A stretch of 64,000 bases of DNA from Lepisosteus oculatus (lineage: Eukaryota; Chordata; Actinopteri; Semionotiformes; Lepisosteidae). Below, in pieces: positions 34,020 to 35,480 of this stretch; positions within the stretch are counted from its first letter, which is position 1; each line of letters starts with the position of its first letter. The position numbers were made by a program, and so were the translations under genes. The notes beneath the pieces were generated by a model that saw nothing but the letters and a program-made list of their open reading frames with translations, ran no database searches and was not told the origin of the DNA. Location: the NCBI RefSeq assembly GCF_040954835.1, contig NC_090723.1, positions 6,148,001 to 6,212,000 of the forward strand, written 5' to 3'.

Positions 34020-35480
34020 CCTTTGGCTGTCCTCGGGCTGTTTTGGGGGGTGCCACCGAGCCCCCTCGCGTTCTCGTTCGGTTCACGGGGAAGGTCAGCC
34101 GGATTTTGGAGCGTGGGGGTTCGTGTGTCCCCGTCCGAGAGGCCCCGGCGCCAGTGTGAGCGTGTGCCCCGCCGTGGACCGGCGTCAGCTCCTCCAGATC
34201 CTCACGGGTCGGCCCAGCAGACGGCTTCGGACTCCGAAGGTAAGGCCAGCGGAAGCTACCGGCGAGCGCATTAGAAACCGAAGGCGGTTTCCTTCCGGAA
34301 GGCTGTGGGGAGTCGGGGCCCGGCTGATGCCCCGGCTCCTCTCGGAGGGCAGCAGGGAGAGATCATCGCAGCAGTTTTAATTCCTGAGCCAACCGGGAGC
34401 CAGCTCCCGGGCTGCCTCTCCTTTATAGTCTGTTATGTTGTGTGTGCTTGACTGCTTCCAATTGGGTTGAGGGGGAAATGTCCCTGCTCGCACAGAAACG
34501 GGTGGCTATCCCAGCTCAGAGCCCTAAGGTCCCGAGTGCCCATCACGACCTGGCCCGTCCCGGGAGAGCCGGGTACGCGGACACGCCTGCGGAGACTGAC
34601 CGCAGGAGGGAGGTGAGGGGTGTGGAGGCTCCCGTGAGCCTGCTGGCACTCGCGTCTCCCCGCCTTCAGCTGCACCTTCACGCCCCACGTCTGCCTGCTG
34701 GAGCCGGACTTCGGGCGGAGCAGAGCTCCCTGCCAGGAATAGCCGCTCCGTCCCCTCTACTGTCCACACGGACAGGAGCCGCGCAGGCCGGGCCGTGTCC
34801 TCAGAAACCCGTCACCCGGACAGCCGGCTCACGCGAGAATGGACTGTCGGAAACGCCACCCCGCTCCCCTCCCGGGTCCGCGCGGGACAGCCGGCCGGCC
34901 GGCACGCGCCTCGGCCTCGGGCTGCGGCGCTCCGCTCCTCCTCCGGAAAATCCCGGAACACATTCCGGGGGGGCGCAGCGCATCTGGCGACGCCTCCCCT
35001 TTCAACGCAGGGGGCGCAATCGATCGTTTCTGCTGCGGCTGCTCTGAATCCCCTCTCCCCGGTGTGTGCAGACCTGACTTCCGCCCCACTGTCGGCATTT
35101 GTCCATTCCTGGTTACCGTACCCACAACACGCACACAGACACACACACACACACCTCAGTCCCCACTGCTCACCCTGGGTCTGATCATCTTTCTCGCCGC
35201 GGCGTCTCCTCCTCCTCCTCCTCCTCTCCGCATCCCGGCGCCTCCGTCTCCATCACCATGCTGGACATCTTGATCCTCATGTTCTTCGCCATCATCGGAC
35301 TGGTCATCCTGTCCTACATCATCTACATGCTGTGAGGGGCGGACCGCGGCCGAGCGGGGGCCGTGAGCTGAGCTGCGCTGCCCGGGTGGACAGCAGTAAG
35401 TCGGCGCCTGCGGGAGGAGACGGGCCCTTGTGCAGCTGTGGTTGTCGCTAGCGGGGTACGTGTATCAGTGCGGGGATGGG
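34020..35480 (+). promoter_or_regulatory. CpG island, probable promoter of the microprotein gene
   Basis: This is a dense run of CG dinucleotides over about 1.4 kb (for example near 34,840-35,000 and 35,330-35,430) between the putative LASP1 poly(A) site and a short ORF with strong coding character. No TATA box is apparent near the ORF. A (AC)n run lies at about 35,127-35,154 and a (CTC)n run at about 35,207-35,227 in the likely 5' UTR. The ORFs of 100-200 codons in this stretch overlap on both strands and reflect high GC, not coding. Confidence 0.6.
35258..35335 (+). CDS. candidate 25-residue single-pass membrane microprotein
   Basis: The ORF starts at an ATG in a CATCACC|ATG context (A at -3) and ends with TGA. 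Its 25 residues begin [14 protein letters not shown] and end YIIYML: 7 Ile, 6 Leu, 3 Met, 2 Phe, 2 Tyr, one each of Val, Ala, Gly and Ser, and one charged residue (Asp3). That is one complete transmembrane segment with almost no tail. In 24 of 25 codons the third base is G or C, and all seven Ile codons are ATC, a strong coding signature. An in-frame ATG 53 codons upstream exists, but its extension is CA-repeat and Ser-run translation, so the inner start is preferred. I do not recognise it; the size recalls SERCA-binding peptides such as sarcolipin or phospholamban, but there is no sequence match. It may also be a uORF of a longer transcript. Confidence 0.62.
   Translation: [25 protein letters not shown]

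Follow-up and report, generated by a model that had tools for sequence, protein, structure and literature searches.

A predicted 25-residue membrane microprotein encoded beside LASP1 in the gar, the putative ortholog of human LASP1NB

A 25-codon open reading frame (ORF) downstream of LASP1 in the gar Lepisosteus oculatus almost certainly belongs to a conserved coding gene. It is very probably the ortholog of human LASP1NB (HGNC:44353; ENSG00000263874), formerly LINC00672. Its product is predicted to be little more than a single hydrophobic helix, and it is nearly identical to a human peptide that is already in print. Taking the whole explanation together, we think it reasonably likely that this LASP1NB ortholog encodes a single-span peptide that acts as a lateral helix regulator. 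The window referred to below is the whole stretch of DNA analysed, 64,000 bases on a 10.9-Mb contig, and its features are collected in Table 1.

Table 1. Positions in the window of the ORF, the signals around it and the LASP1 exons upstream.
Feature	Position	Strand	Basis
LASP1 LIM-domain exon, approximate ends	11625..11723	+	
LASP1 exon with a nebulin repeat, ends approximate (20 bits, cut-off 20.1)	20476..20571	+	
LASP1 nebulin-repeat exon, approximate ends	24629..24742	+	
Short piece of a LASP1 exon with a weaker match (E=0.003 over 16 residues)	27906..27953	+	
LASP1 last coding exon (SH3)	29280..29450	+	PDB 3i35
CpG-rich stretch over the ORF, likely promoter region	33901..36100	.	CpG o/e and GC, 400-base windows
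ATG-free stretch, probable 5′ leader	34842..35257	+	ATG scan
25-codon ORF and stop codon, putative LASP1NB ortholog	35258..35335	+	translation, human sORF match
Possible splice donor GTAAGT, 60 bases past the stop codon	35396..35401	+	by eye
AATAAA about 300 bases past the stop codon, with a T-rich stretch after it; possible poly(A) signal	35631..35636	+	

Results

The coordinates, reading frame and stop codon of the ORF were checked and are correct, and the product is 25 amino acids long. Codons end in G or C at 24 of 25 places and have T in the second position in 19 of 25; Ile is written ATC all seven times, and no D, E, K or R occurs besides Asp3. A preliminary description of this DNA had given the codon-ending, Ile and charge counts, all of them rightly. 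It had also called the Kozak context good, and with A at -3 it is, but C at +4 leaves it short of perfect. The third-position G/C taken alone would mean little, since it is expected inside a CpG island, and the setting is indeed the island that had been proposed: the ratio of observed to expected CpG (o/e) runs from 0.60 to 1.39 across ten 400-base windows at about 33.9-36.1 kb.

One hydrophobic span, residues 4-25, makes up nearly all of the peptide, and the mean Kyte-Doolittle hydropathy of the whole is 2.572. This is the highest value among the 454 ATG ORFs of 20-60 amino acids on both strands of the window, the runner-up standing at 2.09. First-order Markov simulations with 2.572 as the threshold gave 0 of 80,226 ORFs reaching it under the composition of the window, and 0 of 60,241 under that of the CpG-rich stretch. 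Because no simulated ORF was equally hydrophobic, we do not take this one for a product of chance, and the earlier remark that a random ORF would rarely look alike is borne out. Residues 4-25 are of a length to cross the bilayer once. The insertion estimate is favourable, the best segment of 19 residues (4-22) scoring -5.1 on an insertion scale that gives -3.4 for a sarcolipin segment and -6.3 for a phospholamban segment. By type, not by family, the peptide is a predicted single-pass membrane microprotein, and at 25 residues it would rank among the shortest conserved vertebrate proteins. A search of its own genome (1.2 Gb, 813 contigs) returns one match at E<=0.001, its own locus.

A human version of the peptide has been printed. 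The appendix of PMC11351124 gives fifty small ORFs (sORFs) from sORFs.org, a repository of ORFs from ribosome profiling; the sORFs analysed are human, and those in the list are said there to carry the Ensembl sORF label. One of them, gonzalez_2014:438290, is 78 nt long and encodes 25 amino acids (PMC11351124). It has the same length, start and stop as the gar ORF and is identical to it at 23 of 25 residues, with Phe for the gar Leu at residue 5 and Leu for the gar Met at residue 24. Membrane-helix composition alone, with approximate residue frequencies, would give about 3 identities, and the probability of 23 or more is then about 4e-21. The name of the data set, gonzalez_2014, hints at a 2014 brain study. 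In the literature searched by pieces of the peptide, its letters appear in print only in PMC11351124.

According to a passage in PMC12807706, HGNC renamed LINC00672 as LASP1NB, for "LASP1 neighbor", on its change from lncRNA to protein-coding. A glioma study places LINC00672 at chr17:37,081,875 in a passage that leaves the genome build unstated (PMC7820673), and PMC12245202 takes from GTEx a very high brain expression of the human LINC00672/LASP1NB RNA. By position, by the HGNC naming and by reasoning, the printed human peptide most probably belongs to LASP1NB. The suggestion in the preliminary description that the peptide may be undescribed therefore needs correcting, as the passages cited already print the human ORF and record the gene as coding. 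A published function for the peptide was not found among the matches listed when the literature was searched by peptide letters and gene names, in the portions of text available, and LINC00672 together with ribosome profiling gave none in the literature searched.

LASP1 lies next door in the gar, as had also been claimed. Its LIM, nebulin-repeat and SH3 exons are upstream of the ORF, the SH3 exon having LIM and SH3 domain protein 1 (PDB 3i35) as its best PDB match at E=2e-29, and the first 23 residues of LASP1 are matched in the upstream flank at L002:7717-7785. Counted from the last LASP1 codons, the ORF follows after 5.8 kb on the same strand; human LASP1NB is likewise named for its place beside LASP1. 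A tandem repeat of seven near-perfect 40-base copies (99% matches) occupies 28786-29068, just ahead of the last LASP1 coding exon.

The wider neighbourhood was surveyed across the window and 200 kb of flanking sequence, divided into 20 stretches of 10 kb that include a few hundred N, together with the short L001. PLXDC1-like exons at L003:8826-9999 and L002:9-74 (+) stop 7.6 kb before the first LASP1 piece and share one strand with LASP1 and the ORF. MED24 exons lie 89-96 kb past the end of the window (L018:9047-9469 and L019:1004-6447, +), identified by Pfam Med24_N, and one of them also matches MED24 in the PDB. About 75 kb upstream of the window, an open frame (L009:4814-5242, -) contains a Dickkopf N-terminal cysteine-rich domain (E=1.4e-10). 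Proteins or protein pieces for eight other genes of the human region (RPL19, RPL23, CACNB, PSMB3, PCGF2, PIP4K2, CWC25 and ARL5) gave no tblastn match at 0.01 in these 264 kb or in L001.

A horse table gives the order PLXDC1, FBXO47, LINC00672, LASP1, RPL23 (PMC7341496). The gar order is PLXDC1, LASP1, ORF, whereas the horse list, compared here by gene order, has FBXO47 and LINC00672 between PLXDC1 and LASP1. By this comparison the LASP1 block looks reversed, which is consistent with an inversion in one lineage. The case for orthology with LASP1NB rests on the human match, the adjacency of the ORF to LASP1, the adjacency of LINC00672 to LASP1 in horse and the HGNC renaming. We strongly infer that this is the same gene, and predict that the ORF is translated in gar.

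The flanking genes also provide a measure of constraint. Across four LASP1 pieces, 139 of 158 residues (88%) are the same as in human LASP1, in a tally whose piece ends may overrun exon borders by a few residues and which omits two pieces (81% over 16 residues and 83% over 23). Since the helix is identical to human at 23 of 25 residues while these four pieces are 88% identical, strong selection on the peptide seems likely. The membrane helix of PLXDC1 serves as a second yardstick: it keeps 10 of 22 residues against 20 of 22 for residues 4-25 of the peptide between gar and human (Fisher P=0.0028), this being a single two-species comparison with segment ends picked after the alignment had been seen. 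Given this difference, the side chains of the peptide seem specifically constrained. Plain membrane anchors drift among Ile, Leu and Val; that the peptide helix has hardly done so favours specific packing. The earlier proposal of a real, selected microprotein with a single predicted membrane helix is upheld.

The sequence around the ORF gives some indication of the transcript. The probable 5′ leader contains 0 ATGs where 2.6 are expected (P(0)=0.066), which is weak by itself, but as it is ATG-free the start codon of the ORF comes first for any transcription start within those bases. The possible splice donor agrees with the consensus at 6 of 9 positions, all on the intron side, and the exonic side is poor; it falls below the cut-off of 8 used in the splice-donor consensus scan and was not reported by the scan. 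A transcript spliced at this donor could be an NMD target. Rfam at gathering scores finds nothing at the ORF, the sole match being a tRNA elsewhere. A tRNA-Cys (GCA) gene is located at 40490-40562 (+), 5 kb downstream of the ORF; human tRNA-Cys genes presumably also sit around LASP1.

Other features of the window include a perfect (AAT)19 microsatellite at 39375-39431, an imperfect tandem array around GCTGCCCTG at 44620-44881, for which periods of 16, 24 and 40 were reported, and a minisatellite at 61082-61443 with 10.4 copies of a 35-base unit, mostly open in three minus-strand frames. Pfam finds nothing in two of three minus-strand frames at about 49-64 kb. The GC content of the window is 51% (CpG o/e 0.53), against 40-43% in flank stretches L003-L009 and 49% in L002.

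Discussion

The gar peptide shares its size class and its single membrane helix with sarcolipin and phospholamban, and to that extent the comparison drawn in the preliminary description is sound. The kinship that such a comparison might imply is unsupported by Pfam and by shuffle tests. At E<=10 Pfam returned 0 families for the gar peptide and 0 for the human peptide, in agreement with the earlier statement that no family could be recognised, while among the controls sarcolipin finds its own model and the phospholamban model (the latter at 0.0073) and DWORF finds its own. A PDB sequence search with the peptide gave no match. Ungapped alignments were then scored against 4,000 shuffles for each of four partners, and sarcolipin (P=0.53), phospholamban (P=0.63) and KdpF (P=0.33) align no better than shuffles. 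The gar peptide also differs from sarcolipin and phospholamban in having no basic residue. KdpF, a bacterial pump subunit (PDB 6hra), is a short helix of a P-type ATPase complex and offers an analogy of type only.

DWORF (PDB 7mpa, Pfam PF22030) is likewise a tiny single-span peptide. Its ungapped alignment with the gar peptide reaches a score of 39, where shuffles average 26.5 (P=0.0175 uncorrected, about 0.07 after correction for four tests), and brings G14/G25 and Y20/Y31 into register. DWORF has a polar head of about 11 residues, however, which the gar peptide lacks, and PF22030 is not matched at E<=10. As a comparison of sequences this resemblance is marginal, and after four tests suggestive at most; we keep the peptide apart from the SERCA regulators. 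A SERCA regulator of the sarcolipin, phospholamban or DWORF type would have the right size and type and would account for the DWORF score, but that score is one of four tests, and the Sarcolipin, Phospholamban and DWORF models all go unmatched at a threshold well within which sarcolipin reaches the phospholamban model. We consider this identity unlikely. Kinship with the KCNE channel subunits was also considered, and Pfam was empty for the peptide. Three PHROGs matches, at E 0.27-1.5 for the gar peptide and 0.35-1.7 for the human one, were taken as chance.

The DWORF transcript was once counted as a lncRNA. The human gene discussed here is treated as a non-coding RNA in PMC12077738, in PMC6691578 and in a review (PMC6406952), at least in the passages available. 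On such an account the locus would work as a cis-acting RNA, either a p53 cofactor or a miRNA sponge, and the ORF would be secondary. The review, following Li et al. 2017, describes human LINC00672 as a cofactor with a locus-restricted role in p53-mediated suppression (PMC6406952); a miRNA sponge model has been presented for it (PMC6691578); and overexpression effects are reported in PMC12077738, whose available text does not contain the word "peptide". If the overexpression constructs held the whole RNA they also carried the ORF, so that these data would not separate the two. The gene is now coding per HGNC (PMC12807706), and the ORF keeps 23 of 25 residues and both of its ends between gar and human. 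RNA structure over 35160-35397 is no stronger than in shuffles (z 0.49), which leaves structure without support in those bases as the conserved feature. A role of the locus as RNA, with the ORF secondary, is in our judgement improbable.

We regard it as very improbable that the ORF serves as an upstream regulatory ORF, or that the act of translation matters and not the product. Its small size and its place towards the 5′ end of a likely exon would fit this description, but inspection of the ORFs listed for 34200-36400 revealed none with a recognisable product, and regulation by translation only would not preserve 23 of 25 residues. Finally, an origin by chance within the CpG island is scarcely credible: such islands favour codons ending in G or C, and tiny ORFs are common, as the 454 in this window attest, but none of the simulated ORFs matches its hydrophobicity and the human match is in practice a refutation.

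With the peptide itself as the acting product, we lean towards lateral regulation of a membrane protein as the mechanism. A 25-residue chain is still within the ribosome tunnel at termination, so its insertion would have to be post-translational, possibly through tail-anchor or EMC-type routes. Asp3 would mark one face of the membrane, and Tyr20 and Tyr23 the opposite face. As the peptide has no soluble domain, it would have to act by touching the helices of a larger membrane protein with its own. The helix may pack laterally against one specific multi-pass protein, such as a transporter, channel or pump, and this packing could tune the activity or assembly of the partner, probably most in brain. 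The very high brain level described for the human RNA makes a neural transporter, channel or pump the first candidate to consider.

What is new here is the near-identity of the peptide in a second and probably distant vertebrate, where it again adjoins LASP1. Since it is apparently under strong selection, experiments on LINC00672 need start-codon controls. It is possible, and we put it forward tentatively, that the near-invariant helix serves a brain membrane transporter, channel or pump as its dedicated subunit or regulator, and that the peptide accounts in part for the effects published for LINC00672 (tumour suppression, autophagy, cell conversion). The peptide offers a minimal test case for a specific function carried by a bare transmembrane helix.
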